From the NCBI GenBank assembly GCA_030374765.1, contig JARGXX010000073.1, positions 186,001 to 250,000 of the forward strand: 64,000 nucleotides of DNA, in the 5' to 3' direction. The DNA is from Agarophyton chilense. Lineage: Eukaryota; Rhodophyta; Florideophyceae; Gracilariales; Gracilariaceae. Positions within the stretch are counted from its first letter, which is position 1; every line of letters begins with the position of its first letter. Shown here piece by piece: positions 2,742 to 30,462 of this stretch. The notes beneath the pieces were generated by a model that made no database searches, was not told the DNA's origin, and saw only the letters and a program-made list of their open reading frames with translations. A program made the position numbers and the translations under genes.

Positions 2742-3266
2742 ATGAAAGGAATTCACGCCATTTGTCGGAGTCCACCTTCTGTTGAATTGATGACGAAATA
2801 TGTCCCAGGAAAAGATCCTGAGGGAAGGAGACTCTGCACTACCTGTCCATCACATGAAAGAAAACTGGAAACCAATAGAAGCGCTCATGCTAGCGTGCAA
2901 GAAAAATTACTTTCCAATGCTGGAGTCCTCGAATCAGGATTTTTAAATGCTAACAAGAGACATGATGCTCAAACGTCGCGAGGCTGGAATTCTGATAGCT
3001 GTGGGGGTTCTGTTGGGCCTAAGTTGCAGAGCTCATCGACAATTATCATATCTCCACTTGTGCCAGAAACCATTACCTCACTTCGTTACGAAAAATTCCC
3101 GCCTCTGAAACACAAAATTTCAGTAAGAACTAGAGATTTGCAGAGCTCGGTTACTTCATCTACTACTCTTGGTAAGAAAGCACTGGAACTATATCAGCCT
3201 TTCTGTAATGATTCCTCTTTCGCATTGAGGAACTCCTCAACTTGTTCTGTGTTACAGATAGAATAG
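2742..3266 (+). CDS. Hypothetical ORF, 174 codons, unsupported function
   Basis: An open frame with mixed, Ser/Thr-rich composition begins at an ATG at 2742 and ends at TAG. It has no motif I can recognise. It may be chance, or it may be an upstream exon of the coding-like remnant at 3460-4160 on the same strand. The flanks 2495-2741 and 3267-3459 show nothing else. Confidence 0.15.
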   Translation: MKGIHAICRSPPSVELMTKYVPGKDPEGRRLCTTCPSHERKLETNRSAHASVQEKLLSNAGVLESGFLNANKRHDAQTSRGWNSDSCGGSVGPKLQSSSTIIISPLVPETITSLRYEKFPPLKHKISVRTRDLQSSVTSSTTLGKKALELYQPFCNDSSFALRNSSTCSVLQIE

Positions 3267-3459
3267 GGAAAAGGTACGCAGGGGCACAGCCAGAAAAAGA
3301 GATAAATATTATCGAAATGCCAGGAAACGTTATAGGCTGCGTAGATATCAGTAACCAAGGGTTGAACAGCCTGCTAGCATACATAACCCGGAAATTTTGA
3401 GGCACAGCGCTCTTGATAAGAATGAATGTTCGTAGAAGAGTGAAGGCTTATAAAAAGTA

Positions 3460-4160
3460 CAAATGGTGAAACTTGTCACTGAAATTACGCAGTACTACCA
3501 TTTGTTTACATGTAAGACCACTGATGGTGAGAAAAAGACTATTATATCATTTAAAAACACTAGAAATGGAGAGCGAAGAATTGGTGGTTCTCTTCCATTT
3601 AATGTTGGCACATTGGCTAAACGATGATTTACCCATACGAGCAGAATCGTTTGTAGTGGATAAGAAGGGTGGCTTCTTTGCCTATTTGTCATTCATTTCT
3701 GGGCATCAGTGGTCTTATCGGACTTCATGCTGACCAAGATGCGCTAGAACTTGTCTCTTTGGCAATCGATGGTCTCATATCACTACATGAGCATCTTGAG
3801 AACCAGGCGTCGAAATTTTCTATCAGAGGACTGATACAAGCGTATAGAGTGGTCATGGATGCTTGAAGAGATCTTCAAGGCGCTTCAGGGCATTCTCGAG
3901 ATCTGTTGATGGAAGCAAAGACACTGACTGGGTTAGAAGCAGACGGATTAGATATTCCAGGGGTTTGCGTGCAATTATATATTGCCGTTCTAGCTTTGCT
4001 GGATGACGGCAAATTTCCAATAGACTTTTAAAAGTTCTTACTCGTGTAACCATCGAGTCCAAATATGCGACAGAGGGGTCTCATGACGAATCTATTTCCA
4101 AAAAGTGCGTTTCTGAAGGCTGGCAAAGTTTCGTAAGAGATCGAGATCTGATTTGGTATT
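3460..4160 (+). pseudogene. Coding-like remnant of unknown protein
   Basis: Three linked stretches look like protein rather than noise. About 3463-3632 reads as a polar sequence with Lys/Thr and Gly. From 3669 to 4031 one frame runs through a single TGA at 3864-3866 and contains helix-like, Leu-rich sequence (residues such as DQDALELVSLAIDGLISLHE). A third stretch follows to about 4160 in a shifted frame and ends at TAA. The frame changes could be short introns or indels. I do not recognise the family. The remnant ends just before the copia fragment at 4303. Confidence 0.3.
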
Positions 4161-4302
4161 AATTGCGGTTTAGCACGACTGAAAAGATGTTATGAGACAT
4201 GTACACTGACAGATGTCTACCATAATTAGTGACTTAGGTGCGCGCAGAGGAAAAGGGCGAGATAGTGGCGATGAGGGCGAGTAAGCAGCGGGGTATGAAA
4301 TT

Positions 4303-5661
4303 GAAGTTAACCAAACATATGGTCAGGACTACGTGGAGACTTATGCACCAGTTGTTTCGTTCTCTTTGGTTCGCATATTCTTGTATCTGACGTTATGCTT
4401 GCGCATGTATGTGGTACAGGTGGATGTGAAGACTGCGTTTTTCAATGGCGAACTTCAGGAAGATGTGTGGATCATGTCACCTTGAGGTATACCTGGCGTG
4501 ACTTCACGATGCTTCAAATTGCTCAAGGCTGTCTATGGACTGAAGCAAGCGCACTTGGCATGGCACAATAAACTATGCAAGGATATGAAAAGCATATGTT
4601 TTGAAGAGTTACCGAGTGCACCTTGCGTGTTTCGCCGCCAAAACGAGAGCAATGAGGATGCGTTCGTGCTAGTTTATGTGGATGACTTGCTAATACTCAC
4701 AACTTCTGCCAAGGAACGTGATGCGATTTTGGAGGAGCTTAAGTCGTTTTACGAGCTGCGTGTGGTGGACGAAGTGAACTTGTACCTTGGCTTTGAATTC
4801 AAATGGACTTTAGATTCAGATGGTCGACCTGTGTCGCTGTATCTTGGTCAGTCACTGTACACGGAAAGCGTGTTGTGCCGTTTCGGGTTTCAGCGATCCA
4901 AGCCGGCATGCACCCCTATGGTAGAATCTTTTTTTACCGGGTTGACATCTGAGAAAGACAAATCCATCCAGGATACTCAGCTCTACCAGCAGATCATTTG
5001 ATCGCTTTTGTACTTGGCACTGAGAACTCGGTTGGATGTATTAGCACCCGTCCTAATCTTGGCTCGTTTTCAGAAATCGCCCACGGCCTACTGTCACAAG
5101 GCGGCAAAGCGGGTTCTTCGTTACCTTCGCGGTACAACTGGACATGGTGTGCACTATCATTCTGGCATGGTGAAACTGGAGGCGTACGTTGACTCTGACT
5201 ACGCTGCGGACACGCGTGATCGCAAGTCAATGTCTGGTTTCTTAGTGAAGCTTAGCAAAGCGACATGAATGTGGGGCGCAAGAAAACAGGCTTCGGTGGC
5301 GTTGTCTACCGGCGAAGCCGAGTATTATGCTTTCGCGCTTGCGTGTCAGGAGGTTATTTGGTTGAAGCGTGTGCTTAAGGAGATTGGATGGAAAGTGCAA
5401 GGTGCTGTGCCCATTCGTTCGGACAACCAGTGCGCCATTGAATGGGCAACTGGTGAACGCTGTCCGTCGGGTCGCGCTAAGCACATTGACGTTAAGTTGC
5501 ACTTCGTTTGGGAACTTATCAATGATAGTCACATCAATGTGACGTACGTTCCAAGTGAAGACAATGATGCAGACTTCTTAACTAAACCACTTGGCCCAGG
5601 TCTTCACAACAATAACGTGGACCGTGTTGGACTTGGCCGAGCAGTCGAGGAGGAGTGTTGA
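4303..5661 (+). pseudogene. Ty1/copia pol remnant: reverse transcriptase and RNase H
   Basis: One frame carries the copia reverse transcriptase from the ETYAPVV segment through DVKTAFFNGEL, VYGLKQ and the catalytic YVDD (about 4675-4686), then the RNase H with STGEAEYYA, SDNQCA and the terminal DADFLTK motif. gag, protease and integrase are missing: the element is truncated at its 5' side at about 4300. Three in-frame TGA codons interrupt it (4483, 4999, 5266) without any frameshift. The frame runs into the 3' LTR, preceded by a purine tract (GAGGAGGAG, 5647-5655) that would serve as the polypurine tract. Confidence 0.9.
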
Positions 5662-6328
5662 GGTTTGGTCGACTGTGCCCCCAAGCCCTTTGGAGTGTTG
5701 GAAATAGTGGAAAACAAAAAGTGGATTTAAGCATGGGCACTTTTGGGCACCCTCCGCGGAAAAACGCATATGCGCCTCATCTCAATCTCAACGTGAAACG
5801 GCCATCTAATTGGCTACTGCAAATGCCCTCATGCAACGTGGTATGGACAAGTGGTCTGGTTCTAATGGGGCGTGTTGGGGCTTCGGCCCAAGTGGAGCGA
5901 TTTGATTGGACGAGAGCGCTGAATGAGCACGGGCTCTGCAGTTGGAGAGAATGTGCGAATGTGGGCTGGAAACGGGGTTTGGCCGTAACAGCCGAATCTA
6001 GGCTGCGCGGGGTGGTTGGCACTGGCGCACCACTTTGGATGATTTTTTGAGTTTTTATTTGATATGCTTCATGTTTGAAATTGTTTTGGCGCGCAACTCC
6101 TCGTCGCACAGTGGCAAGGTGTGAGACGTGGTTGACCCGCCGACGGTCAGCACCGGCGGCGGAAGTGCGTGCGAGGTAGATATAGTTTTCAATGACGGTC
6201 GCCAACGATCGAAGTAAAGTGTCAAGGCTGACTACCTTCCTTTGTTTCTCTTCTTTTATTTTTCTCTTCTTCTCGTCTTTTCCCCCTCTTCTTACTTTTC
6301 CTTTACCTAACCTGCGCACACGTTGCGA
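5656..6328 (+). mobile_element. 3' LTR of the truncated copia element
   Basis: This 673-bp LTR starts TGTTGAGG directly after a purine-rich tract and aligns end to end with the inverted solo LTR at 1817-2489. The two sequences part after the common end near CGTTGCGA. The next five bases are GGTAT (6329-6333). The same pentamer occurs at 4292-4296, about 7 bp before the first recognisable pol codon, so it may be the target duplication of a 5'-truncated insertion, although five bases are weak evidence. Confidence 0.85.
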
Positions 6329-6431: not shown

Positions 6432-7742
6432 ATGGTGTCGAAGAGGAAGCGAGGGTCACCGGATGTGCGCGGAAAAAGCAAGTTCCAGCGCCCTAACGCC
6501 AATAGGGGGAGTGTAGGCGGCGACGGTGGTAGAGAAGGACCTTCGAGAAGCGGGCTAAGGATTTTGAGAGATGCAAGGGTGCGCGACTATGGAGTTTGTT
6601 TGGAGGAAACGGTAACCGAGGAGATTTCTCCGAATCCGAACATCAACAATAGCAGGAAAGAGACACGAAGACGAAACGTGGGCGTTGAGAAGTTACACGC
6701 AATGCAGGGCAAAAATCTTAAAGTTATGAGCGTGGGTACTATGCCAGGAAGACGTAGAGGTGGTCGGAAGGGTAGAGTTTCGCATACAAATGGTAAGGAA
6801 AGCTTCAAACCCAGTTGAGAAAGAGAGAACGCTCTTTGGGCCATGTGCATATGCAATAAATTAGAACATTTAGAAGGAAACAATAGGAAAAGGTGGTGAA
6901 GAACCATAAGGACAGTTGAGAAGCGGCGCGAACAAATCGGCACGGCGACAGGTGACACAGGTATGACGAAGAGGAGATTTGAGGCGAATGATAGCAATAT
7001 TTCAGCCTACAAAACCGAAGGAAACACGGGTAATGAGATCGAGAGGAGTTCTGGAGCTGGGACCAGACGCGCAGGGGTTTCACGTACTATCAAAGACGAA
7101 CAAAATGGGGCACCCGTTAGATTAGGAGAGAGGGTTGGGTACAAAACCTTGGTCTTCCTTCAGAACGGAAACATTCTCCCACTTCTTTCAACCTATGGGC
7201 TCCAAAACTGCACCAAAGCCGTTCTCTTCCTCGCCGTCCCCTCCCTTAACGCACCCCCCGAGGACGGTGTCACCCTCCTCAGTCCCCATTGTCTCACAAC
7301 TGCCACCGGCAAATGGGCTCCCGTACTCGCCAATCGCCTCAGTACTGCAGGCCTCACTTGTCATGTCGTCGACCAGCCCTCCTTCTCTAAAGCTTACTAC
7401 GAAAAACTCGTATGGATATCAGCTTTTAATCTCGTCGGCTCCTCTTATGGCTTTATCACAATGCACGAAGTTGCAGTACAACACCGCACAGTCGTTTCAA
7501 CCATAATGAAAGAGCTCCTCGCCATCGTTACATCCGAAACAGGAATCACCTACAATACAACAGAAACACTCCAAAAACTTCTGGCCCACGGAAAAACACT
7601 TACACAGTTCCCCACCTCGTTCTCAGACTTTGAGTTCCGGAACGTCTACTTCTACAACGTTTCTAACGCCCAAAAATCCATTGGAAACCGTGACCCCGCC
7701 CCTTTCCATACGAACTTCTTGAACGTCCTCCTCAATGGGTAG
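6432..7742 (+). pseudogene. Chimeric frame ending in oxidoreductase (ketopantoate-reductase-like) C-terminal domain
   Basis: A single frame of 437 codons carries TGA at 6816 and 6897. Its first part (to about 7130) is basic and Gly/Arg-rich and resembles in composition the start of the ORF at 17794; both contain ETVTEE. From about 7140 the sequence changes to a C-terminal domain like that of the plant/algal NAD(P)-binding oxidoreductases related to ketopantoate reductase: a LVFLQNG start, TATGKWAP, the helical core EKLVWISAFNLVG and the terminal QFPTSFSDFEFRNVYFY. The N-terminal Rossmann fold with its GxGxxG nucleotide site is absent, so reductase activity is not expected. Base composition also shifts at the junction, from purine-rich to C-rich. 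The family call comes from remembered patterns. Confidence 0.45.
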
Positions 7743-7875
7743 TACTTCATTCATATACCCCTTCCAATGAAAACAAGTCCTCCTTTCTAAAGCATATGTC
7801 CATCTCCTTCGCTGCCTCGATAAAGACTGCTATCCGCACGACACCAAGTCAGAATATATGAAACGATATTAAGAA

Positions 7876-9348
7876 TTGCTTCGTACATCACAAATCATCA
7901 CTACAACCATTCTTCATAAATCTTCCAACTTTGCAATTAACTCTGTACCCAATAACCGCTCCTACAGCCTATCAAAGGTTTTCATTCATAACAATTATTC
8001 ATACTCCGCAACAGAGATACGGCAACAACCTAACAACTACTTTGATCACTACATATATATATCCACCGATGACCACCCTACTTCATTGCGCTCAACATAC
8101 TGTATCCAGTCCCTCACAAATACCTTTCTACACAACACTCTCCTCTCCTTCTCAAGCATGCAGCGCTACGAAGCACGTCTTTCCCTACCCCCTGGTTCTT
8201 CTGTCCAATGCTCAGAAGCTGTGGATATTCTTCCACAACGAACGGTTATCACCATCGACGAAGTCCTTCAAATCAAACTTCCAACCACCCAGAATGTGGT
8301 CGAAGTCAGAGGGTTCCAGAATCATATCACCAACGAGCTCATGGACGAGATTGGTGACATTTGTACGACCACCAGGAGGCTCCCCACTCGCAACTCCCTA
8401 CAGCAGCAAGATACTCTGAAACAACTGTTCAAAGAGCGGTATCATATCGTTACCTATGTGCAGCGTACAAGGAAGACTAGCAAACCGGAACGCCTTTACT
8501 AAGATTTTCAGTTAGCAAACACTCTTCACATCGACCTTAACGTTCACAATCACACTAACTACACTCTTCGGAGTTATGGACCCAGCTCTGCAATATACGC
8601 TTCCATTCAGATTCAACTCTCTTCTTCGGTTCATTCTCATAACGCTATTGAGATGTTCTATCCAAAGCCTGCTACACGTTTTCATAATCGAAGGAGGCGT
8701 ACAATGTATAAACGCGTTATACGGGTCTCTACAAACTACGCCGTTCAATCCAAACCAGCGATATACCTGGAAGAAACGAGCCTTTCTGGAATTCGGGGCT
8801 CTACTCCTTACTCTACTCATCCCCCTCAACGCCATACTTTTCCTCGTTCCGTTCACCGCTTCATTCCAGTCAGCGGTACCCTTTCATCAGACGTGAAGAC
8901 AAATTGTATCGCCTTCTCCACAGGAGGGGCCGCAGTTAGCGCTTTGGCATATCTTCTCCAGCTTGTTTCTATATCCTTCTTTCCAGAGTCCTATCTTAAC
9001 ACAAAGTTCACAATGACCCCGGAACCACGGAGAACCTCTTTTATGAACCTCGTGCTTGGCGCCCTCTCCCACTCTTTTCAACAGGCTTTATTCATATCCA
9101 GTCCGGATGTAACCTTCCGACTACTCGGTATGAGGCTGTCGGCATGCACTTTCGCTGCACTCTCTTCAACCGCCTTCTCCACCTCTCGCATTGAGGGACC
9201 TGGTGTTCCTTTACTGCTTGGTAACACAGTGGATGTCGTAATCTTGATATATTCGACAGTTGTCAATCACTATGAAAAAGTGAAAGCAAGTGTTACTCTC
9301 ACGCGTTTCAATCCCGTTGTTCAGGAGTTTCTACTGAAAGACGACTGA
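7876..9348 (+). pseudogene. Unknown protein, long frame with one internal stop
   Basis: The frame is open from 7876 to 9348 except for TAA at 8500-8502 (about 490 codons). The N-terminal part is Ser/Thr/Tyr-rich. The C-terminal part has hydrophobic stretches (around 8925-8990 and 9200-9250) that could be membrane helices. A second hydrophobic frame overlaps at 8576-8896, so a frameshift near 8890 is also possible. It is convergent with the ParB/oxygenase gene, whose end lies 82 bp beyond. I cannot name the family. It could be a third gene of the neighbouring modification module or unrelated host DNA. Confidence 0.3.
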
Positions 9349-9429
9349 TCACTATTACAGGAAAAGGGGACTACTCCACATATTACCTCAAATTGTACTC
9401 TTTATTGTTCAATAGGTAACAGATACTAT

Positions 9430-12400
9430 CTAGTCGTCGTCGTCATCCATTATCATACCGCTGTCTTCATAGTCTCCATCTGTGTTAGCCGAGTTAAGAC
9501 CCATCCCAGGTTCATCATCCTCTTCTTCATATTACTCTTCCCCACTTTCAACAACTTCCATTTTATAATCTTCATCCAACTCCTCATCCTCATCTACCTG
9601 GACGTCTTCATTATCACCCTTGTTGGAATCATCCTCTTCGGACTTAGGCCGAAATGCTGGTTGCCTATGCACTGCGTCCGATAGCTTGTACCCATCCGGT
9701 ACCAAGTACATGTGATACCTCATGCAAACTTCCTTAACCAATGCATCCTCGTATCCAGCTCCAGCATGAAACACATCTCCTCTTCCAATAAAAATGGAGT
9801 ACGGCGGAATCCTGAACTTCCTCACTACCATCGTCCGAGACAGCCGCTTCAAGCTCCTGTTGTCGGGCACGTACATGTTATGTGACCTCTCTCAAACCCA
9901 AAGCATAAACGAACTCGCTCCTGACGCCATCATGAAGAACCCTGGAACCTCTCCGACGTTCTTCTCGGCATCGGTCAGTCCTCGAAAGTCCGTATGTAAC
10001 ACCTGCCTTGGACAGCCCTCCGCCGTACACAGCACTCGCCCCCCTGTTTCAGGGGCATAAATCCTCTTCTTCCCCGACCTGTTGTTACACAACCGAAGAG
10101 CGGCCGCAATCTGTCCAAACCTCGCATCCAACGATGCCCTTTTCCTCACCATTAAAACGTTGTTCTCGTCCCCCTCCACAAAATCCACAATCCCCACCTT
10201 CGTCGTAATGTACCGCCCAACTCCCTTTATTCTATCTCCAGCGTCTCTCTTCTCACCAGCGTTGATTATAGGGTCCCATTTCTTTCTATTCCCTTCAATC
10301 GTCAAGTCCGGCTGGTTCAAGAAATCCGTCTGAAAGAACTCTAGCAAAGTCCCAGTCACATCCCCATCGAAGTTTACCCCCCTCTTCTTCGCCTCATCCG
10401 CCGTCCCCTCGTCCGTGGCAAACTCTTCCAGCACACGAAATCCTTTCTCCATCAGCTCACTTCTCTTAGTCGCGAAGTACTCGCGGGCCAAGTCATCCCT
10501 CTCCATTGCTGCCATCCATATCGCTTGCTCTTCATTCACAGGGTGGTTCTTCGTCGGTAGAATCACCCCAAGAACCGGTTCTTTCTTGGAACCCAGTTCC
10601 TTGTGCCTGTTATGAGCAGCACGCCAATAAACCGCATGGTGCACACTTTTCAAGTCTTTTACCCTCAAGCACTCCGCCCTGTGCTTGTTCCGTAGGTAAA
10701 TCATCTGCATCCAGAGGTGCTGCTGCTTCACTCCATTTTCACCCGCCGGCCACTCGCTCGGAAGTGCATTCACCAAGTACACCCACGACATACCCGACAC
10801 CCCCGCATACGGTCCAGCCCTCTTCAGCCCCTTCGGAACACCCTCCGGATTATTGTCTTCGAAGCCACGCATTTGCACACCTTCCTCCTCTTCGTCCCCT
10901 ACAAATGCACCCTGCCCCCCGTCATCATCCAGTTCATCCTCACTCGATGAGAAAACATTGAGTACATGTTCCTTCAAGAAGCGCTTCAGCTCTTTCCTGC
11001 TCATCTTCTTGAACACATCCACCACGTCAGCCGGTATTTGAGCCGCAGATGTGCCCATCGTCTTTCTCCTCTTCCTCTTCCGCTTTAAAGGCTGTTCATA
11101 CTCGCGTTCATCATCACCAATGGCCACAGCCTTTCTCTTCCCCTTTCTCTGTCTAGGTTCCATCACCCTCTCACCCGCAGCATCCAGCCCGCGCTCAGTA
11201 CCTTTACTAGTTCGTGTGATGCGTCTGGGAACCACGGTTTCCTGGTGGGGTACAGACTCCCCAGCACTAGGCAAAGGAACATTCACAGAAGGTGGCACCT
11301 CCACCACATCCTTCTCCGCACTTGGGGACGCCAGACTCACTTTCAGACCGCCTTCAATCCGCCTTTGTGCGATTTTCATCCTCTTCGACACCAACCCCGG
11401 CCACAACCGCTCCGGACCACGGAGCTCCATCTTCGCCGTTTGCATGCAAAGGTACTCCCTTAAAGACACCTCGTTCTTTCCCATCACAATTGTGCCGTCT
11501 AGAACCTTCCCCGCCGTCAGACCCTTCTCCTTTCCCGCCCTTTCGCATAGTTGGAACATTCCTATGGCGCATTGGAAGAACTGCTTTCGCGTCTCCTGGA
11601 AACGTCCCATATTCCCCGTAGAACCCATCCTCACCATCACATGAAGCTTCAAACAACGGATTGCGAAACGGCATATTTCGTCTTCGAGTCCTAACAACAA
11701 GTCACTCGACACATGCGCAAGCGTTAGCACTGGACCCTCCTTGCATACGTTCTCAAAGAACTCCAGGAGACCTTCGCTCCTGACGAATTTCAACCCAAGA
11801 GTCGCATAGCGATACAAGTGGCGCAAGCTGTAGATTCCTATAGCTTCGCTCGTCTTCAGCGCCCCAGCTATCCGTGTCGGAGTAAGGTCAGCCAACTTGG
11901 TTCTCTTATCGTCAATCAAGTTGCAAATGAAGGACACTGTCGAATGAACCTTGTCGGCGAAACTCATCTTCAACACATTTGAACTCATTTCATTGAGTAC
12001 ATTACCAAGACCGAGCACTTCGTTCAGCGATAAAGGCTTCCGGTTCTTTCGTCTCCAAAGAACGACATCAAGAGACCGCACAATTTCCAACCACTTTCTC
12101 CCTTCAGAGGGATCATTCTTCAGATCTCGCAGTACCAAGACGCGGTGATGACCGTCAATGAGTATGACAGGCACCACTACCCTCCCATTGTGAACAATTT
12201 CACTGAAATCTAATTCCATTCCCCCGACGATGGCAACATCAAACGACCCTGCCGACGCAAGCCAGCCAAACGTTTTGCACTTTGCCATCGTCGCCGCCTT
12301 GTGTTCCGCATTCACACTTCTGACAGTCTTCTCGGGGATTTGTATGTCATCTATGTCCACAATCAAGCGGCACTGGTCATGGTCTGAAGCAGAGATCTTC

Positions 12401-13116
12401 TTTTCCACGAGAGTCCTATCCACTTCCTGCGAAGGAACGGCATCGCCATTATCGAACAACTCCGACTCGGGACCGGTGTGCGAATCCCCGCGTACATTCA
12501 CCGCTGACCCCACCTCCACAACATCTTCATCAGAATCATCCACTATCGTCACCCTCTTTTTCGGCTTGACGGGTTGCTTCATGGCCGGCGGCACTGTTGT
12601 TGGCTGTGCCCTCTTCCCCCTCAAAGGCGTAGCAGACTCCTTCGAGGGGGTCGCGCTTTTGGGAGTCTCCGGCCGAGGAGGCCCTGGAGTCAGCACAGAG
12701 GAGACGCGTGTCATCATCGAGGTATCCCATGCGTATATACCTGCCGACACCATATCCTTCAGCAACTCCGGCGGCTACTCTGCTCCCTTGAAGGAGTACG
12801 GATACTTGGAGTTGATCCCCTCCTTAATTTCAGTCCTCCAGATAGCCACCAAGTCCTCTCCCGGCTTCGCAGACTCGCGCAACGAATGGCCATGCATCGC
12901 TCTGCAAAGTGCCTTCCCGGCCGCTCCACTGCCCCCAACACCTCTCAACTCCGCAGTGCCAACCATAGTACCCTTCTTCTTCCCTGTCCCATCCGCCAGG
13001 AACAACGCCACCCTATCCCCACCAGCCAGATTGTGTCCCGATGTAGCTTTTCGCGGAGTGGCGCGTGGAGTACCCCGCGGAGTACCCCTCGCTTTCGCTT
13101 TGCCTCGAGTCGTCAT
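9430..13116 (-). pseudogene. ParB-like domain fused to 2OG-Fe(II)-oxygenase-like domain, three internal stops
   Basis: Reading from the ATG at 13116 one frame of 1,228 codons reaches TAG at 9430-9432, broken only by TAG (12775), TGA (9892) and TAA (9532). The N-terminus is basic with TPRGTPR repeats. Around residues 285-330 a ParB/Srx-like pattern appears: VDIDDIQIPE, later VPVILIDGHHR (the DGHHR at 12142-12156) like the ParB GxxR/HR box. The middle is helical, followed by KRKRKRRK-type nuclear signals and an acidic patch. The C-terminal region has HTDF (9985-9996) and, about 75 residues on, FIGRGDVFHAGAGY with an Arg shortly after: the HxD...H...R pattern of 2-oxoglutarate oxygenases. The tail is acidic. 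It is divergent from the methyltransferase gene across the hairpin array. Domain names are inferred from motifs; the internal stops suggest a recently dead copy. Confidence 0.5.
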
Positions 13117-13261
13117 TTGAATCGGATCGTAGTCGGTCGAGGTTGCAAATGGTCGCAGAGCGCTTTGAGCCTTTTATGGTATACAGACTAAGACGTATTA
13201 GATCAAGCTCCTTTGGTGGCGACTATCCGGAACACTCCCGAGAGCAGTTCGTTGCAATCAG

Positions 13262-13313
13262 CCTGAACTACGTCCGCTTAGTTTCAACCTGAGCTACGTC
13301 CGCTTAGTTTCAA
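13262..13313. repeat. Two tandem 26-bp repeats
   Basis: Two adjacent copies of a 26-bp unit starting CCTGARCTACGTCCGC and ending TTAGTTTCAA differ at one position. They lie upstream of the ParB/oxygenase start codon and could be paired protein-binding sites in its promoter; no direct evidence for that. Confidence 0.7.
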
Positions 13314-13405
13314 AACCAAGAAACTCCTTGTCTCTATCCATCACAAACACGCCTTTTGGCTTGGTAGGCGATACAAGAAAAAAAATTAAAAAATTAAAAA
13401 TATCC

Positions 13406-14164
13406 TGACGGCCGACAGAGGTGCGCTCCGACTTCATCGGGGCTCCCGATGAAGTCCCCGCGCACCTCTGTCGGCCGACATAATACATATAATTTTGTAA
13501 CTTTTGGAACGCTCAGGTGTACACGGTGCACTCTGTCGGCCGACAGAGGTGCGCTCCGACTTCATCGGGGGTCCCGATGAAGTCCCCGTGCACCTCTGTC
13601 GGCCGACATAATACATATAATTTTGTAATTTTTGGAACGCTCAGGTGTACACGGTGCACTCTGTCGGCCGACAGTCGACCAACATCTCAGAAACGCATCA
13701 TGCGTGATGTTATGGCGTATTTGTCGGCCGACAGGGGTGCCCTGCGACTTCATCGGTGGACCGATGAAGTCGCAGCACACCCCTGTCGGCCGACAATTCA
13801 CCAACATCTTGTAGGGACACCATTCGGGCCATTTGTGGGCCGCCAGGAGTGTGCTGCGACTTCATCGGTGGACCGATGAAGTCGCAGGGCACCCCTGTCG
13901 GCCGACAGAGTGCACCGTGTACACCTGAGCGTTCCAAAAATTACAAAATTATATGTATTATGTCGGCCGACAGAGGTGCGCGGGGACTTCATCGGGACCC
14001 CCGATGAAGTCGGAGCGCACCTCTGTCGGCCGACAGAGTGCACCGTGTACACCTGAGCGTTCCAAAAATTACAAAATTATATGTATTATGTCGGCCGACA
14101 GAGGTGCGTGGGGACTTCATCGGGACCCCCGATGAAGTCGGAGCGCACCTCTGACGGGCGACAG
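13406..14164. repeat. Palindromic array of six 76-bp hairpins
   Basis: Six inverted repeats lie at 13406-13480, 13533-13608, 13721-13796, 13833-13908, 13961-14036 and 14089-14164. Each arm starts with TGTCGGCCGACAG (itself palindromic), continues through GGTGCG-type sequence and ends with GACTTCATCGG, the two arms meeting at a 1-4 base loop. Hairpins 1-2 and 5-6 are separated by the same 52-bp A/T-rich to GTACAC-containing spacer, in opposite orientation, so the whole block is itself an inverted repeat with its axis near 13785. Apparent ORFs here on both strands are by-products of the symmetry. The array fills most of the 1.27-kb gap between two divergent genes, so it could act as promoter element, replication or partition site, or source of hairpin RNA. 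Confidence 0.95.
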
Positions 14165-14390
14165 AATGCAACCAGGATAGCTGCGAAGTCGTTCCGCAAC
14201 AACCGTTCTTCCGTGCGCGCTCCTCAACCGTACTCACAATCTTTCCGTACCCACCCGCACCCACCCGCACCCGCTGCTCTCTTTCACTCAGGCTCTCGTG
14301 ACGACCGCCCGTGAGGTTGTTTGAACATGTACATAAATGGCTCCAGAACCCACGAGAACTTCTTCATCGCCTGCAGCAGACACCTTCTAA

Positions 14391-17300
14391 ATGGGTAAAC
14401 TGTTTGGTACGGGGGATGAAGTTATCAGGGCGTGTCTGGATTTGCGTGATGGTTACGCATTAACGAGGCGGGAGGAAGATGAGCCGCGAAAAGTGGGGCA
14501 CACTGCATTCATCGATTTCACAATTGCCAATCGCCACATCCTACCGGAGACCGCGAAGTTTTTTTATACTCTCCTAGGTCCCGACCACACCAATTACACA
14601 GAAGATGAGCTCCGAGTTGTAGGAATGAGGGGCTCGAACTGTCAGAATTATTTCTCGGCGAGGTTGCTGGATATAAGGGATGGGGACCCAGATAGGCGCG
14701 TGAGGGACTTTTGGAACGCGTACGAGGCGGTGGAGTTCAAGGGCATCCCGAAGAATGTCACTTTGACAGAGTTCTTCAAAGGTCTGGATACAACCCGAAA
14801 GAAGGAGAGCAAAAGCCGGGCTCCATTCGCGACCGACTTCCCGACAATGTTCCAGAGGTTGCTGTTCCTCATTTGTATTCAGTCGGTCTCTATGGAGAAG
14901 AGAAGAGTCTCCCGTAAGCGAAGAAAGCGGGACAGATCCTACGATACGCCATTTTCGAAGGTGGCGATTTATGACAAACCAGTTAGCTCAGCGTGTGGGC
15001 TTTGGTGTGCAGCTCGTCAATAACGCATGGGACAGCTTCGCCCAGTATTTGGGATTCCCTGGCGTGGAATTCATGTTTTTGCCCTTTATCCATCTACGAT
15101 ATTCTGATATGCAGTTCCAGGCAATCCGAAACAGAAGGGATGGGTTTTCTCACAAGGACATGGCCCAACGACTCCTTCCTGGTAGAAACCATACTTTATT
15201 GGAGGAGGATGTCGTCCCATGGGCGTGGAACCTGCCGGAGTACGTTGACATTCCACTTCGTATGTTGGCCAAAGAGTTTCTCGATGACCTGCACAAAGTG
15301 GTGGTGAATGAGCAGATTTACTCTATATCAGCTCCGGAAAGATGGGACGTTCTAAAACCGTTTACATACATTTTGCCTAGAGTGTTTGCGGAGAGATTCG
15401 ACTGCTTCTCGAACTCTCTTATCTCTACCATCTCGGAATACATATCGCCACTAAAGCTGCGAGGGAGTGTGGAGGTGGAAGTGGTGGCTGCGACAAAGGC
15501 GGAACCTACTATGGTTATGGAAGAAGACGAGATAGAAGTTGTACCCCCTGGGAAAGATTCGGAGGCTCCGGCGGTGGAGGGTGGAGAGGGAGTGGAGGGT
15601 AGGACCGGGAATGAGGAAGAGAACATGGGTGTTGGTCAGCATTCTTCCACAGCTGGACCAAGGTCGGTCGAATCTGAGTCGGTGGATATTCTGCCGCCTC
15701 ACGACCTTACCTCTCTGGATGATATAATGTCTCTCCAAAAGTGCGAGTCGGAGATGGATAAGCACTGTCGAATGTACAATTGTACTTCCGAGAACCTGGT
15801 GGAGATTGACGAGACATTGCGCAGCAATGGGGTCTCTCCGATAGGGAAAGTGCAGTTGGTTCTCACGGACCCGCCGTATAATATACGTGCGAAGAAGAAC
15901 AGGAAAAACAGCTGGTACGACGTTCTTAACCGGCAAGACATGGTGAAGACGGCGAAGCTCATCTCTAAACTTCTGCGTCCGGGAGGGCATTTCGTTATAT
16001 TCTGCGCGATTGAGCAGGTGAACGAATGGAAAGAAGTGTTGGGTCGAATCGGTGCAAAGGATGAGAATGGACAGAAGAGCAGGTCGTTTGTCGTGGACAA
16101 GGTCCAGCTGCACTTCATTCGCTCTCAAGGCAATCCGATGCGTAATCCCGGACGTAGTTCGTGCTCCCTGTTTCCCGGAACAGAGTACGCCATTCATGGA
16201 GTTCGCAGCGGGTTGTCCTACGCCGAACAACATGGCATGGTGAACTATGAGAACTTCAGCTATGTACCATCGCGATATCCGGGTTACCATAGCGTGATTG
16301 ACCAAGTGCCTCCCATGTCGAATGGTGAAACACTTCTATGGAGAAGGAAGAATGCCAAAGGAGCAGTTACGTATCAGAAAGTGCGGGCGGAACAGAAGTC
16401 ACGCGCTTTGCTGAAGGAGCTCATCAGCAGGTTTTCTCAGCCGGGAGACATAGTGGTGGACCTCTTCGCCGGAACATTTTCAACGGCCATGGCATGCATG
16501 GAACTGGAAAAGCACCGTCAGTTTCTAGGGTGTGAGCCAGATCCGCAGTGCTTTGCTCATGCGAAGCACGCCGCTACAGTGAAATTTGCGTCATGCATGC
16601 GGAACAACGAGACGGACATTCATATAACGCAAGATGTTCGGAACGCTGTGACTCGAGTGACATGCTTGTTTCCGGACGTCGTCATAAAGCGTTCGAAGTC
16701 CTGGAAAACACCTACCGGATTTCCCGAGCATCAGATGTTTCCACCCCATATCGTGGGTTTTCTCCCCTCCATGTGGCAGGATAAGAATATTCTGGAGATT
16801 GGGCGACGGCAGGCGCTGTATGAGTGGCCAAGAAGTTTTCAAGGAAAGATGTCACTGTTGGATTGGAATGCTATTCTGGCAGTGGAGGCGACAGTATGTG
16901 GTTGTCGGATTGCAAAGTCGACGATAAGGCACCCGAATGCTAGAGTTGGTGTGTACGCAACACGCCGGGTGATACAAGGTGAGACTGTTTGTTACTTTTA
17001 CGGGACTTTGGTGTACCATAATCTTTCAAAGCGGAAGGAAGTTCATAAGGCACACGGAGGGGGGCTATTGAAAGCGACTGCTGATCGTTTTCGGCAGTAC
17101 GCGATGGAGATAAGCGTCCGAGGGGAAGTGTTTCACAAGCTACCAGGAAAAATTAGTGGGGTGTCTCTTATTCCGTTGTGGATTGTCCCTGCTCCATTTT
17201 GCTTGGGGGGAACAATTGACGACCCCAAGTATGTGGAAGGGGATAGGGACAGGGATGCGGTTGAAGACGGGTTAATGAGACGCCAAACTGCAAATGTTCG

Positions 17301-17433
17301 GGTCATCAGAACTCCGGGGACGGGGCGAACCCCATTTCAGTTGAGAGACTATAGATTGCTTTCTGTGCAAGCAATTCGAGATATAGAAATAGGAGAGGAG
17401 CTGTTCGCGGATTATGGGACAGAGTATATCTAG
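14391..17433 (+). CDS. Beta-class adenine-type DNA methyltransferase fused to SET-like domain
   Basis: Two overlapping frames make up the gene: 14391-15023 (N-terminal, unknown fold) and 14971-17433 (820 codons, no internal stop). The switch between them, somewhere in about 14770-15020, could be an intron (a GTAAGC lies at 14914) or a frameshift. In the long frame the amino-methyltransferase motif DPPY is at residues 300-303 (15868-15879) and the AdoMet-binding motif VVDLFAG is near residues 495-501. DPPY before FxGxG is the beta-class order; the second Gly of FxGxG is not conserved. Residues about 650-820 resemble a SET domain: GVYATRRVIQGE, a YFYG strand and the closing IEIGEELFADYG, although the usual NHS box is not evident. 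The protein would methylate DNA and perhaps histones. It is divergent from the ParB/oxygenase gene and 360 bp upstream of the ORF at 17794. Confidence 0.6.
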
Positions 17434-17507
17434 AGTATCAATAACACGCCAGTCATAGTAATCAATTAAAAGTGCATCGCTTTTGTTACTTTACTTCATT
17501 GTAGTGT

Positions 17508-17626
17508 ACCAGATATTGTGGGCTTTTACTATGTTTGTCGCTACATATAACTTCAAAGCGTGACGTAGTACATATGCTAAAGGAAAGTCATGTACACCGA
17601 AGGAGAAGACTTTCCCAATATCTGGT
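17508..17626. repeat. Short inverted repeat downstream of methyltransferase
   Basis: ACCAGATATTGTGGG (17508-17522) and CCCAATATCTGGT (17614-17626) are near-perfect inverted copies about 90 bp apart. The pair sits just after the methyltransferase gene and before the next ORF. It may be a transcript-end hairpin or a small transposon relic. Confidence 0.5.
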
Positions 17627-17793
17627 GCGTTCGAGCGCATATTTAAAATATCTGAAAAGTTGGGGGGTTTTCTGAGAACACGAAAAGGGTGGAGGTATAA
17701 TTTTGGAAGCAGAATGTTTCGAAGCTTCTCTCCCATCCATCGCATTGCAACGCGTGGAAGACCATACCACGATCGCTCTCTCTCTCTTCAACC

Positions 17794-20448
17794 ATGGCTC
17801 CGAAGCGCAAATCGAGAAGCGAGAACACTAGCGGGCGCGGTACAAAATAACGGCGGCATGGAGGGGATGCGGAGGGCGGAAGGGACAAGGGGCGTAGGCT
17901 CCAGGGCGCGAGTGGAGAGAAGGGAGGCGTGCGCCTGAGAGGTAGATCAAGGCAAGATGGTGGGGAAGGAGAGGCGAGTGGGGGCAAAGGAATGGCTGTT
18001 CGCGCAAAGGAGACGGTGACGGAGGAGAGTGCGGAGCAAATCACGTCGCGTACGGAGCAAATCACGTCGCCTACGGGAGAGATGGTGCAGAGCGGCGATG
18101 GAAAACGGGATGGCGTGCGAAGCAACCGCACGCGTGTACCTAGAAGTGGATTGCGGGGGAGGGCGAGCAGAGCTCCAGGGAGGAGAAGGAGAGGGGATGC
18201 ATCCGAGCGGACTCTAAGTGCTGTACTCACGTCTTCAGCTGATGTGGAGCCGGTAAATCCATGGTCTGCACCTGAAGGAGGTGAAGAGATTCTGAATGAG
18301 AAAACAAATGGGCGTAAGGAGGGAGAGAGAATGATCGGAGAACGTGGATCCCGCCTCAGAGGCGTTGAAGAAGCAGGGGCATCGTTTACGGGTATGAGGG
18401 AAGAGGACGGTGATGATGAGATACAGAAAGGGAGAATAGAGAGTAGCCGTGGTGGGGAGGGTAGAATAGGTGGACCCAGTAGTGGTCTAATCGCGGGCGC
18501 AAGAGTCGTTCAAGAGAGAACAGAAGGAGAGAGTGTTGGAGTTACCGCGGGGGAACAGGCGGAAATATGGGAGGGGGCGAACTTGGATTACGTGGAAGAA
18601 AGGAGAGAGCGTGCAAGGGAAACAATGGGGAGTGTTCGAGTTACAGGAAGAAGAGCGATAGACGAAAGGGAAAGCAGAGGAGTGCATGTGAGTGAAGGGG
18701 GGAGAAGGGGGTTTGCTGGAGGGAGGACACGTGGTTCAGGGGAGGAAGGCGATGGAAGAGCAGCAGTTCTTTCTCATCAGGAAGAAGATGTCGTGCGTTT
18801 GCCACCGAGAAGAGGGGTGGGTTTGGGAGTTGAAGGGTTTGAGGTGAACGCAAGGCGAAGGACGCCGGAAGGTATGCGAGTAAGGAGAAACATTGTATTC
18901 ACAAGGAATAATGATAACGGGGAGAATGCGAATTTAAATGTCGTGGAGAACGCCGTCCGTATAGTGGAAGATGAAGCAAATGATGATGACATAGGTTTGT
19001 TGCCGCGGTCGATGCTAATTGAGAAGATGAATGTGTTGAAGGGACAAATGGGACGTATGAAGGAAGACAGCTACAGTGTGATGGTGAGTTTGAAAATGAC
19101 CCAAACGGAGCTGGATCGGGCGAGGGAGGAAATGAAGCAGCAGAATGTGCTGATTGAGAGTTTGAGGGAGGCGTTGAAAAGTAGAATCGCTGGGGAAGGG
19201 AGGGGGGAGGGAGGCGTGACGCGGCGACGAAAGTATGACATTGGAGTGCAGGAATGCTTTTATGGATTTGCACGTCGTGTGTATGATAGGATTCTTCATT
19301 GTGCAAAACCGGAGGCATCGGAACTTTGCTTCGACACGGAGAATGTGGGTCGAAGCTGGAAGAATAGAAGTGAGGCGGTTGGGGAGAGTAGGGAGGAAAG
19401 TATGTTTGTGGTGGGAGAGAAGGAAATGGTTCCGAGATGTCCAATTGAGGTTGCATATGAGATGAGACTGTATACCCCGTCGACAGAGGGCAGGAGCCAT
19501 TTGTTGTTGAAGCACGTGGTAGAGACTGAGTTAATGGGAGAGAAATGGGAGTCGATAAGGGAAGCGGGGAGGAGAGAGGAGTGCGTGGAAAATGTAAGTG
19601 CGGATAGGTGATTGAGACAGAGGATGAAGCAGACATTGAGCGATGCGGTTGGGGTGCGGAAGCGAGCAGCGCGTGATAAGCTGTTTTCCATGCTTGGATA
19701 TGATTTGATCGCGAAACGAGCTAAGGTGACTGAAGGGACGGAGCTTTGGGCGGAGTTGAAGAAGAAGATTGAGGAGGCGCAGGAGAAGTTGATGGGGTCG
19801 GGGGAGGATGGTAGAGGTAAGCTGTGTGCGTGGAGAACGAGTGCGATTGAAGATATTACTTATTCTGGATCGAAGGTGTCTGAGAACTTGGAGGACTTTG
19901 GTGAGGCAGATATGTATTTTCGAAATCAGGTGCCGTTGAAAGTGTTGGAGGAGTTTATGGGCTACGCGGTAGAGAGTCACAGAAATGGAGAAAGGCAATA
20001 TGTGGATGGGACGGTGATGCATCTTGCGCGACTTGATGCATGGATTGGATGTGTGGTGACCACGATGGATAGAGACGTTGGGCGGGGAGGCCAAAGGCAA
20101 CTTTTGTTCTCGACGCTGTTGGGGAGGTTTCTGCCACTGGCTGTTGAGGACATATTGAGGGTTGCCTGGAACATGGTGAAGGATGAGTATGCTGAGGAGT
20201 TTGAGAATGATGGATTCTGTGGAGGGAATCGCAGAGATGTGAGTGGGAATAAGCAGAGAATCGCGACGGTTGGGCTATGGATACCGTCGAGAGAGAAAAT
20301 CTATCTGGCGATAAGGGAGGAGTTTTTCATGGAGAATCTCACGAGAAGAATTGGAGCGGTGTTAGATTGCTATATAGCGTCATGTGGACCAGAAGAACCA
20401 CGGTTCAAGCGCTTAGCGTTGGGGGGTAGGCAAGGAGTGGAAGAGTGA
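17794..20448 (+). pseudogene. Arg/Gly-rich protein with coiled coil, unknown function, two internal stops
   Basis: From the ATG at 17794 (start MAPKRKSRSE, a likely nuclear signal) one frame of 885 codons ends at TGA, interrupted by TAA at about 17848 and TGA at 19609-19611. The first 400 residues are low complexity, rich in Arg, Gly and Glu. About 19010-19190 encodes a coiled coil with regularly spaced Leu/Met. The C-terminal 270 codons look globular. The gene converges on the transposase at 20558-23798, with about 110 bp between the stop codons, so both may be genes of one DNA transposon. The strongly G-rich strand bias matches the C-rich coding strand of the transposase in opposite orientation. 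I do not recognise a family. Confidence 0.4.
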
Positions 20449-20557
20449 TAAGGTACGGGGGGATAAGGGGGTAAGGAGGTGGAGCAAGATGGGGGTCGGC
20501 TATGGAAGAAAAGCAGCGGTGACTAATTTATTGGATCATGTGCCTTGGGAGGTATTA

Positions 20558-23500
20558 TTATGGGTGCCACCCAGTGGTGGTGTTGTGCCACCAGTGGTGG
20601 TGCTGGAGAAGTAGGGCTTGGCAGTTGGGTCTCGGTAGAATCTGTTGAGGTAAAATCGATGGAAGCGCCAGTGCAATCGAGGGGTGAAAGGGGGTGCGGG
20701 GTAGTTTTGGCGAAGTACATGAACGGGGCCGAGAATGGAAGAGGATGGTACGCGGCCGAACCAGGGGGAGACGTTGTCGGAGTTGGAAGTGTTTGAGATA
20801 GGAAGGGGGGTGGGCGGTGTGATTTTGTTCGTCGTTTGTTGCCCATCGGAGGCAGATGCAATTGAGAGAGACATCGACTTGATCTTGGGGTGGAACGAGT
20901 TCGAGGAACTGAACGAAGGCGAACTCGTTATGAGTGGAAGGGGAAGAAGGGGTGGTGAAGCGAAGAAGAGAGTTGAGCTTGCAGACCCAGGCGGTGGGAG
21001 TGGGGTTGGAGAAGCTGGAACCGGCAACGAGGATGTGGGAGAACTTTAGGGTTTTAGAGGGACCGAAGGAGGGAGCAGCGAAGATACGTGGAATGAGTGG
21101 GAGAGGGGGATCTTTGACGGCGAGCTCGTTTCGATCGGCGATGTAGTCGTCTAGGGTTGGGGTGAAGCCGCCGACGACGTATGCAGAATTGACGAATGTG
21201 AGACGGGTTTGGCGGAGAGTGGGGGAGTCCTGGTTGAGAGCTAGTTTTTCGAGTGTGATTGTGACGAAGGAGGGGAGTGCGAGGGTTCCAATCTGTGAGA
21301 TGATGGCGATAATGTCTGGGGAGAAGAGGTCCTGAAGGGAAGAGATTGTTGAGTGGGGGTTCGCTCGAAGGAATTTCTGAGCGGTGATGAGATCGGAAAA
21401 GGAGGTGTGCTTGCCATCACGGACGAAACCTGGTTTGCGGGCTTGGAAGGGAGGAGGAGGGGCATGGGAGGGTGAGGTGACGGAAGGATCAGCGGAGAGA
21501 GAAATCCAATTGTTGACGGCATCGGAGCGTTCGATGGCACGGATGGTTTCGTTGTGCGCGGTGGGTCTGCGCTTGGAGGTTCGGGAGTAATGTGCTTTGA
21601 AGAGGGTATGGGCTTGTTCGAAGATGCCTGCATCGTTGAAGTGGAGACCCCCAAAGCGTCGAATGTCGTCTACGATGTGATCGAGGAGGTGGAATTTGAG
21701 GGTGCCAAGGTTGGAGGTATGGTATGGACCGAGAACATCGACATCTCTGTGCTTGAAGGAATGGATTTGGGAGGCGAGTTTGGCAAGACGAGAAGTGGTC
21801 CATTCGGGGACGGAGTTGTAGCACATGGAGGTGAGGAGGAGGTCTGTGTACTTGGAGAAGACAGTTGTGATGGGAGCGGAATTGGCTTAATCACAGCAGC
21901 GGTCGAAGAAGGCGCCGATGAAGGGGAAGACCATGTCAAGGGCGCGGTAGTCTTTTGCTTCTAGCATGCCGCGGACGCCGTCAGTTGTGAAGAAGCCGTT
22001 GAGGGACTGCCCGCTTTCGGAAGTAGAGAAGTCGATGTGGAGGCCGGTAGCTGGGGAATGATTTTCGATGGCAGTGAGGATGAAGTTGGAGTGCTTGAGG
22101 ATGGAGGTGCGGACGGAGTGGAAGGAACGGCGGGAGTTTGTGGAGCTGATGGTGGTGAAGAGGTGTTCTGATCTGAGACGTTCGATGGCGGCGAGCTTGA
22201 TGAGTTTGGAAACGCCGAGGTGGAAGTTGTGGAGCGGTTCGAAGGGGAAGATGTTGTATGGGGTGAGGAGGGGGGTGATGTTGAAAAGGGGGTAAGACTC
22301 GAAGAGGGAGGGGTATTTTGCGAGGGAGAGGGAGTGGAGTGCTTGGAGAGCTTGTTCCTTGAAGTTGCGCGAGACTCTTGGCTTGCGGGCGAGGAGAGCT
22401 GCTTCGGAGTCCTTGAGGAGGGAGAAGTGTGTGTTGCGGGCTGCAAGGGTGAGGGGAAGAGATCGAGGGGGATGGGCGTGAGAGTGTTGGTGGAGTTGTG
22501 AGCGAGGGACAGAGCATCTGTGGCAGGGGTGCTGGGGGCGGGTGCCGTGGGAGATGGCGAGAATATCCTTTGCCTCGGGAATGTCTGCACAGTAGCTGGC
22601 GAAGATGGGGTGGCATTCACGAAGAACGCCGTCTGCGTCGCGGAAGGGGAAACCGGGGAGGGCGGAAGAGAAGAGAGGTTGAAGGAGGGAGGAGATGGTC
22701 TGCTGTATGAGTTCCATTTTTGTTTGGCGGGGAATGGAGGAGGAATGAGTGATGATATCTGCATCTGGAGAAGGAGTGATTGGGGTGAAGGAGGTGGGAA
22801 GATAGCCGAGGAGTGTGAGATTGTCGGAGAAGCATTTGTGGCAAAAGAAGTCCGAGAAGTTGAGAAGGGTGATGTGGAGGGGGTAGAAGGTGATGGAAGA
22901 TGATTTGAGAGAGGTAGAGGACTTGTCGGAGTAGATTTGGACGAGGCCGATGAAGGAGTCGATACCGGTGGAGTGAGGGAGATGCCAGACGATTTTATCT
23001 TTTGTGGACTGCATGATGGCGATCTTGAGTGCGGGGACGACTTTTGAGCCGAGGGTGGCTGCCATGGGGTGTGCGAAGGCGGGGGAACCGGAGGCGGATG
23101 TTTGGGAGATGGGGTGGAAAAAGGTGTTCTTGAAGTGTGCGAGGGCGAGCTGTTGTTTGAGGATATGGGTTGCGTCTTTCTGGAAGAGGGTTGCGGAGAA
23201 GCGTTTGTGGGGATCGAAGATGGTGGAGGGGGCGAAACCAATGGACCTGATTCTCTGGTGGAAGAGGTCTGCCTGGAGCTCGAGGCATTGCTTTGAGGAG
23301 GAGACTGAGTTCCGGAATGTTGATTCGGAGAAGTGGGGATCATTAAGGAGAGTGATGAGTTCGTCAGCCTTTCGTTGTCAAAGCTTGGAGGCGATGGAGG
23401 AGATGTAGAGGACCATTTTCTCCAGGTGGGGGTTGTCGAGGGGGGGAGTGGAAGGAGGGAGGGGGGAAAGAGCGAGAGAGGAGGGGGAACCGAGAGGGGC

Positions 23501-23798
23501 AGTGGCGACGTGGATGGCGTCCTGGGTGTGGAGGGAGAGAGAGCTGGTCTTGGAGGTAGGAGTCATGGTGTGCGAGAGGGACGTTGTCGGAAGGGCGATG
23601 TGAGCGAGGAGGATGAGGGGGGAGTTGTGAGGTGGACTTGTGGCGTTTTGAGCGGGGGGAGAAGCTGGGTTCATTTCCGCCAAGGGAGAGGAAGCGCTTG
23701 TTGGCGGAGAGGCGATGAGGGCACCTTCTCTGGTGCTGCTGGAGGGCGGGGTTTTCTCGGGCGAAAAAGGAGCAACCGTTGAAGCAGCAGGAAGGCAT
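20558..23798 (-). pseudogene. CACTA/Plavaka/KDZ-like transposase with N-terminal C2H2 finger
   Basis: The gene starts at ATG 23798 with a zinc finger (CCFNGCSFF...LQQHQRRC). One frame shift near 23640 leads into a frame that runs to 20558, broken only by TGA at 23378 and TAA at 21887. Typical segments of the large fungal Plavaka/KDZ and CACTA transposases follow in order: a helical region, GFPFRDADGVLREC..ASYCADIPEAKDIL (compare the family's DG..R..FP...SADYPEK), CHRCSVP, FPFEPLHNFHLGVSKL, and near 21700 TLKFHLLDHIVDDIRRFGG, the conserved FHLLDH motif. The last 250 residues are less conserved. It is C-rich on the coding strand. The assignment to Plavaka rather than KDZ is uncertain; the superfamily is likelier than the family. 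Confidence 0.65.
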
Positions 23799-24236
23799 GG
23801 TGGGTGGAGGAGAGGTGGTGGGAAAGAAGTTGGTAGGGGGCGTAGACGGAGAGAGAGTATGGCGCACACAGGGCACGTGACAGGGGAGGGCGGTGGAGAA
23901 TAATATAGAATGCAAGGCACATGAGGTCTGCCAGGTCGGGCTGCGATTCTATTGCGATTGATATGGATGGTACTAAATGTTCAATTTCTATTTTGAGGTC
24001 CATTTTTGGACCGGTTGTTTGTACTAATCTGTCAATCTAGAGCGCACAAAGATTGAATCTGCTCCTGCACCACTTCTCTACTTTTACCTTTAAACTGCGG
24101 CGACAGAAAGATTCACGCTAGTTTTACCTCCATCACAACTAGAAAAACTGCAGATATGTGCTAGTTTTCCTTCCCATACAAACTAGCACTAATGAACGAA
24201 TGAAAATATTTTCGGAAATTAACACCTCCAAATTTG

Positions 24237-24318
24237 GATAAATTCACGGGTTTTTCGGTCATTTCAATTCGTCCTTTTTTGACAACTGAACTAGCATTCC
24301 GAGAACACTGACGTAGAG
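24237..24318. repeat. Direct repeat, left copy, flanking second transposase copy
   Basis: A segment from AAATTCACGGGTTTTTCGG through AACTAGCATTCCGAGA and GACGT is repeated in the same orientation at 26361-26438, with roughly three quarters identity by eye. The two copies bracket the decayed transposase remnant and may be element ends or the host repeat it entered. Confidence 0.55.
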
Positions 24319-30460: not shown

Positions 30461-30462
30461 AG

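Follow-up and report, generated by a model that had tools for sequence, protein, structure and literature searches.

A divergent gene pair for a predicted methyltransferase-SET protein and a ParB-like protein in a probable Plavaka-type transposon of the red alga Agarophyton chilense

It is known that transposons can carry epigenetic enzymes. In fungi, Plavaka and other DNA transposons carry TET/JBP genes, whose proposed role, put forward without experimental validation, is escape from silencing (PMC12730594); a related enzyme, CcTET, acts on N6-methyladenine (6mA) as well as on 5-methylcytosine (5mC) (PMC12730594). Here we describe a pair of divergent genes, B and C, in a 64,000-nucleotide stretch of the red alga Agarophyton chilense (contig JARGXX010000073.1, positions 186,001 to 250,000, hereafter the window), and we consider it probable that this locus is the middle of a cut-and-paste DNA transposon of Plavaka type, about 18.8 kb long, that carries the pair. 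Like the TET+ Plavaka elements of fungi as that account presents them, the Agarophyton element combines a Plavaka transposase and a DNA-modification gene within one unit bounded by terminal inverted repeats (TIRs); it differs in that its cargo is a protein fusing methyltransferase to SET together with a second, ParB-like/oxygenase-like one, in giving no TET/JBP match, and in having CGTC..GACG termini with TA (PMC12730594). The combination of B and C was not found in the literature searched, and we claim no priority for it.

Two other systems resemble parts of this arrangement. In the 'giant repeats' of Amoebidium a Plavaka transposase flanks long blocks of repeated genes, some of them matching red algae, but those clusters reach up to 50 kb and contain tyrosine recombinases, and the methyltransferase-SET/ParB-like pair is not found in the part of that report cited here (PMC11244446). 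N4CMT of bdelloid rotifers likewise joins a bacterial-type amino-methyltransferase to a chromatin-related domain in a eukaryote; as characterized in the part of the source used here, however, it has a chromodomain and not SET, and it is a host gene that deposits N4-methylcytosine (4mC) at transposons rather than a transposon-encoded one (PMC8885841).

The initial annotation of the window had treated B and C as the unit of interest. That unit is incomplete: both genes are broken in the window copy, and alignment of the window with seven other genomic places, three of which match the element in one piece and the rest with gaps or a cut stretch, gives a repeated unit much larger than the pair. 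Its extent, one terminus and its transposase in the window are as follows.

7150..24315, no strand: Plavaka-type DNA transposon (probable), window copy, from which about 1531 bp at the left, including the left TIR, are missing
24294..24315, minus strand: right 22-bp TIR, reading TACGTCAGTGTTCTCGGAATGC on the minus strand; the left end in other copies reads TACGTCTGTGTTCTCGGAATGC
20561..23920, minus strand: Plavaka transposase, broken into pieces, with a PF18759 match (4.1e-21) on the open reading frame (ORF) 21890-23065, at C73:208205-208945 in contig coordinates

In the six copies with an available left flank, the element extends about 1531 bp beyond the left edge of the window copy and ends in TACGTCTGTGTTCTCGGAATGC, the mirror of the right end. 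These six full copies measure 17,969-18,938 bp, with one internal mismatch between the two 22-bp TIRs. A genome search for the exact TIR pattern gives 42 occurrences. The copies are 97.5-99.5% identical at aligned positions, which suggests recent spread. Because the copies on contigs C2 and C12 have flanks in common, we count them as one insertion duplicated with its surroundings, leaving five independent insertions. Two related, unoccupied sites lie inside the window itself, near 29440 and 51630, and have room for a target of exactly 2 bp; this gap, together with TA at both ends of the element, makes a TA target duplication probable, the identity of the two letters being taken from the element ends, since the unoccupied relatives show other letters at that spot. 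Plavaka target duplications of 2 or 3 bp have been reported (PMC12730594).

The transposase of the intact copy on contig C10 matches PF18759 with 81.0 bits (1.2e-22), and that of the window copy with 76 bits, against a cut-off of 26.3. In Plavaka transposases the stretch from the second D to the last E contains a C(2)C and an H(3-4)H motif (PMC12730594); here CHRC is present, the histidine pair examined is HNFH, i.e. H(2)H, and the catalytic D, D and E were placed by eye. The termini, CGTC..GACG after TA, do not match the TGT..ACA or CATCA..TGATG termini of PlavakaA/PlavakaB. Of the features of a Plavaka DNA transposon, the element has a PF18759 transposase, TIRs and, probably, a 2-bp target duplication; cut-and-paste movement by this transposase is predicted from its family membership. 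Origin from a retrotransposon or virus was considered and rejected: a search with five proteins (B, C, D, the transposase and A2) met no reverse transcriptase, capsid or polymerase, and the ends are TIRs.

Matches to C number 56 in the genome and matches to B 49, a few of them two pieces of one gene. These counts, and that of a second lineage of C described below, are lower bounds, as 55 of 213, 48 of 248 and 42 of 242 candidates were scored, respectively. A divergent B lies within 6 kb of 37 of the 56 C matches, a convergent Plavaka match lies within 12 kb downstream of 50, and 34 have both; conversely, 37 of the 49 B matches are paired with C, and the genome's 123 Plavaka matches include 49 that are linked to it. 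The proposal that two long divergent genes sit here is therefore borne out, by these matches, by intact sister frames of 1043 and 1228 residues, and by divergent relatives of both genes; and the pairing recurs beyond the window copy, in those 37 C matches and in the second lineage, the opposite of the finding that the two are never neighbours.

Gene C and its two recognizable domains lie in the window as follows.

14337..17466, plus strand: gene C, methyltransferase-SET protein, split into ORFs 14391-15023 and 14971-17433 because its frame is broken in the window copy
15850..16563, plus strand: N6/N4 DNA methyltransferase domain (C73:201850-202563; 68.2 bits, cut-off 26.7), with DPPY before FAG, the beta-class order
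16945..17418, plus strand: SET domain (PF00856; 24.7 bits, cut-off 22.4)

The initial annotation had read DPPY, FAG and SET motifs in one protein, and Pfam agrees: in the window copy N6_N4_Mtase (2e-18) and SET (3.3e-5) both exceed their curated cut-offs. In sister copies the intact frame has 1043 residues. In the intact contig C10 copy the methyltransferase scores 66.9 bits (cut-off 26.7) and SET 23.4 bits (cut-off 22.4), with DPPY at residue 511, FAG at 710 and the SET motifs after 869. Sequence relatives of the methyltransferase part in the PDB are DNA methyltransferases such as DpnA (9.1e-10) and CcrM (1.9e-5). C resembles these beta-class enzymes (PDB 5hek, 6pbd) in motif order and sequence, but adds about 500 N-terminal residues and the SET domain. 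Against phages, C matched 54 records, and the 20 matches listed cover the methyltransferase part alone; pattern scans of IMG/VR, which detect close relatives only, found none. An AlphaFold model of C had a predicted local distance difference test score (pLDDT) of 37.4, too low to use. Chance occurrence of the motifs in C was considered and is countered by methyltransferase and SET matches above the Pfam cut-offs in the second lineage. The identification of C as a beta-class amino-DNA-methyltransferase fused to SET is thus supported, and methylation of both DNA and protein is predicted.

Gene B runs the other way.

9430..13116, minus strand: gene B, split into ORFs 12775-13116, 9892-12765 and 9532-9876, with DGHHR near 12150 and HxD...H...R toward the C-terminus

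Its intact frame of 1228 residues is found in a sister copy (L010), and in the contig C10 copy the DGHHR box is at residue 321, H-T-D at 1041-1043, and the distal histidine and arginine at H1117 and R1133. For the N-terminal region, which the initial annotation had called ParB-like from the DGHHR box, hhalign was used to compare a profile of the region with E. coli YbdM and seven ParB-like proteins of phages; the probability was 47% and the score 33.4 over 87 columns, as against a maximum of 23.5 for 60 column-shuffled templates and 10.2 for an unrelated control profile. Pfam ParB_N gave no match to B at E up to 10. The claim is moderately supported. The DGxHR box is invariant in the three B lineages sampled. 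B has the box in common with YbdM and the phage proteins, with a possible similarity over those 87 columns, but at 1228 residues it is fused to other regions. We regard the N-terminal region as probably ParB-like, judging from profile and motif.

The H-x-D...H...R pattern is that of 2-oxoglutarate (2OG)-Fe(II) oxygenases, and the spacings in B, 74 residues from D to H and 16 from H to R, are plausible for that superfamily. All three B lineages keep H-x-D and the distal H without exception, and two of the three keep R (second-lineage B and older relatives L039-L042 were compared; 52-60% identical). The oxygenase proposed in the initial annotation nevertheless found no support apart from this conserved motif: the region matched no Pfam or PDB profile; its hhalign score against cyanophage 2OG proteins was 9.2, under the shuffle median of 12.8, in a comparison that is weak since the phage proteins have HxH; the hhalign probability with E. 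coli AlkB was 0.2%; and an AlphaFold model of residues 220-1165 (pLDDT 28.5) was too poor to judge the fold. No TET/JBP-type Pfam family matched B at E up to 10, for which reason we do not class the element as a TET+ transposon, and PF20515 gave no match but was also silent in control genomes. B as a whole had no significant Pfam, PHROG or PDB match; no relatives were found in phages by tblastn at E up to 1 or, by pattern scans that detect close relatives only, in IMG/VR, nor any of the oxygenase region in GTDB genomes by a scan of the same kind. An oxygenase at the C-terminus of B is a possible reading of the motif.

These empty searches and the poor model also fit an alternative in which the N-terminal part of B is no ParB and the C-terminal part no oxygenase, both being unknown folds with chance motifs. 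We consider this rather unlikely, given that H-x-D and the distal H have stayed invariant between lineages only 52-60% identical, that the motif spacing suits the superfamily, and that the ParB profile outscored every one of the 60 shuffles. A different account takes the name of the phage relatives at its word: if C is a DNA methyltransferase and part of B is related to phage 'ParB-like nuclease' proteins, the two could form a restriction-modification-like or addiction module, in which the nuclease would attack unmarked DNA, methylation by C would protect, and copies would be retained. This is very unlikely in our view, as 'nuclease' in those protein names is annotation only and the SET and oxygenase-like parts would be left without a role.

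Between B and C lies a shared intergenic region, as the initial annotation had noted, although its size, taken from the starts in intact copies, is about 1.22 kb (13117-14336) and not 1.27 kb. It holds the following feature.

13402..14170, no strand: repeat array, with both direct and inverted repeats, that contains the palindrome TGTCGGCCGACA ten times exactly and once with one mismatch, between 13406 and 14100

The palindrome is perfect and 12 bp long. The whole window has 12 matches to it with at most one mismatch, where 0.09 are expected; each of the six full copies has 7-12 exact ones, all between B and C; and the genome has 487, compared with 5 for a reversed control. Two short TIR-bounded elements on contig C3 (C3:24938-29751, 4,814 bp, and C3:97008-101524, 4,517 bp) have a Plavaka match and 5 and 9 palindromes, with no B or C match among the matches listed. 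Ten palindrome clusters among the matches listed, on contigs C1-C3, were sorted by eye: two are in the gap from B to C, six have a Plavaka match nearby but neither B nor C, and for the other two no Plavaka match is listed at a distance of up to 20 kb. Retained where the genes are lost, the site behaves like a cis-acting address. This recalls En/Spm (CACTA) elements, in which a repeated short cis motif is bound by the element-encoded TNPA, a protein distinct from the main transposase, and deletion derivatives of Spm are mobile if the cis sites are kept; the repeats of En/Spm are subterminal, whereas the perfect palindrome of the Agarophyton element is in an internal, shared promoter region (comparisons limited to the part of PMC2613891 cited here).

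From these observations, and by analogy, we think it probable that the element carries a self-modification module that parallels fungal Plavaka with TET/JBP oxygenases but uses different enzymes. C would write 6mA (or 4mC) on DNA close to the element and, through SET, would methylate a chromatin protein or some other protein, plausibly a histone. B would bind DNA via its ParB-like part, plausibly at the palindromes of the shared promoter region. Should its C-terminal part be a 2OG oxygenase, B would also oxidise a DNA or histone methyl mark. Acting on the shared promoter or array, the two proteins together might set or reset the chromatin of the element, so that the element escapes host silencing, stays expressed or times its own expression.

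Several observations weigh against such a module. In-frame stops interrupt 36 of the 56 C matches and 31 of the 49 B matches. The ratio of nonsynonymous to synonymous differences (pN/pS), computed from pairs among six of seven copies with the contig C12 copy excluded, is only mildly below 1: 0.55 for B, 0.90 for C, 0.55 for the C-terminal part of D, 0.73 for the transposase, 0.57 for A2 and 0.81 for A4. For five overlapping frames treated as non-coding controls the ratios were 0.91, 0.95, 1.01, 1.14 and 2.55, and the value for C, set against this range of 0.91-2.55, gives no evidence of present selection. Seventy-four of the 123 Plavaka matches are unlinked to C; with 49 linked, many Plavaka elements either lack the pair or have lost it. 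That short Plavaka elements exist without B and C indicates that the module is unnecessary in cis for mobility. No exact TGTCGGCCGACA occurs in the 2.5 kb upstream of a second-lineage C gene (L038), which has a tandem repeat of its own there. Finally, the oxygenase reading of B comes from its motif, with the profile tests empty and the structure model unusable.

The stops, the near-neutral ratio of C and the short elements lacking the pair would all be expected if B and C were passive cargo, genes that a Plavaka element has captured and carries along without any benefit to itself. We hold this to be distinctly unlikely, because the divergent pair recurs in the second lineage and in six weaker pairs, and because the motifs of C are kept in two lineages and H-x-D with the distal H of B in three, which random capture would not lead one to expect.

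The second lineage emerged from a genome search with Pfam N6_N4_Mtase, whose 116 matches include a separate group of genes, their open frames about 1130-1141 residues long. One member (L037) has the same architecture as C (methyltransferase 61.1 bits, SET 26.1 bits). Its match to C extends over almost the entire length, at 39% identity in the genome search and 37% in an alignment, and it keeps the DPPY, FAG and SET motifs. From 47 matches we counted 33 such genes, after excluding 8 of the first lineage, 5 second pieces and one short fragment on contig C19. Identity to the query copy is 99-100% for 24 of the 33, and 25 are free of in-frame stops, compared with 20 of the 56 C matches of the Plavaka lineage. 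The distance to a contig end is 25 kb or less for at least 18 of the 33 (12 on the plus strand near contig starts; 3 on the minus strand near starts, on contigs C32, C87 and C89; and 3 near ends, on contigs C98, C117 and C13), and for one of the 33 a Plavaka match lies no more than 15 kb away. A second-lineage B is present at 14 places, with 60% identity to the oxygenase region of B, 40% in the ParB-like region and open frames up to 1335 residues. Within 20 kb of the 33 C genes the ParB-like region is divergent in 17 cases, convergent only in 2 and absent in 14, and never in tandem. A further 23 methyltransferase places, picked by eye from the 116 (one, on contig C4, being a second-lineage gene), include 6 with a B-like match within 30 kb, and all 6 are divergent. 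The second lineage and these six weaker pairs make it likely that the divergent pair is older than the Plavaka element family. In the window the pair is Plavaka cargo and not a self-contained cassette, although the second lineage is mostly found away from Plavaka.

The intactness and near-identity of the second-lineage genes, and their position near contig ends and away from Plavaka, are the evidence for yet another account, by which Plavaka acquired the pair, in itself an independent selfish or chromosome-end module that works mainly on contig-end, possibly subtelomeric, repeats. Some of the contigs are short, however, making proximity to an end partly trivial; a contig end is not a demonstrated telomere; and such a job is compatible with an additional role in the transposon. 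We judge this account decidedly improbable as a replacement for the self-modification module of the transposon. A more ambitious version of the latter is unlikely: B and C would form a portable epigenetic module that writes and removes marks on its own parS-like array, in trans for all copies including the array-only short elements, and that has moved between the transposon and chromosome ends, so that a eukaryotic selfish element would possess writer, eraser and address site.

Three further observations concern relatives of the pair. The second methyltransferase-SET family (for example C98:1488500-1493500, L037) is possibly subtelomeric and kept alike by gene conversion. At C21:639420-666932, six same-strand ParB-region matches, mostly about 5.5 kb apart and with one TAG in each, are arrayed in tandem as decayed copies of a second-lineage-like B gene. 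Some 6-8 kb past the right end of the window, at C73:256424-258284, oxygenase-like and methyltransferase fragments lie head to head, 788 bp apart, and are far more divergent.

Two other genes complete the element.

7150..7742, plus strand: gene A2, 5'-truncated in the window match and weakly ketopantoate-reductase-like (PF08546, E 0.038, below the cut-off, in the copy on contig C117)
17929..20448, plus strand: gene D, without a significant family match; a 923-residue open frame in the copy on contig C2

The order in a full copy is a left region with A2, then B pointing left, the repeat array, C and D both pointing right, and the transposase pointing left. With pN/pS greater than 1, ORFs A1, A3 and D1 are unlikely to be genes in the form listed. 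GC skew is about +0.43 to +0.56 in window positions 18000-26000, over D, the transposase and past the element end, and has the opposite sign over B. Elsewhere in the window, direct repeats of about 515 bp, 99-100% identical and 5.84 kb apart (29546-35901), resemble a young long terminal repeat (LTR) element; LTR-like repeats 90-94% identical (51247-60218) flank reverse transcriptase/RNase H/integrase ORFs at 54078-56894; and 673-bp inverted repeats, 97% complementary, enclose 3.2 kb at 1817-6328, as in another TIR-type element or an inverted duplication.

Near-identical dispersed copies, short elements with the array alone and a second lineage make the self-marking idea testable by long-read mapping of 6mA and 4mC. 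If it is true, the Agarophyton element would be a self-contained model of selfish DNA that sets its own chromatin state, with a DNA writer-SET fusion, a DNA-binding oxygenase-like partner and a palindromic address site.

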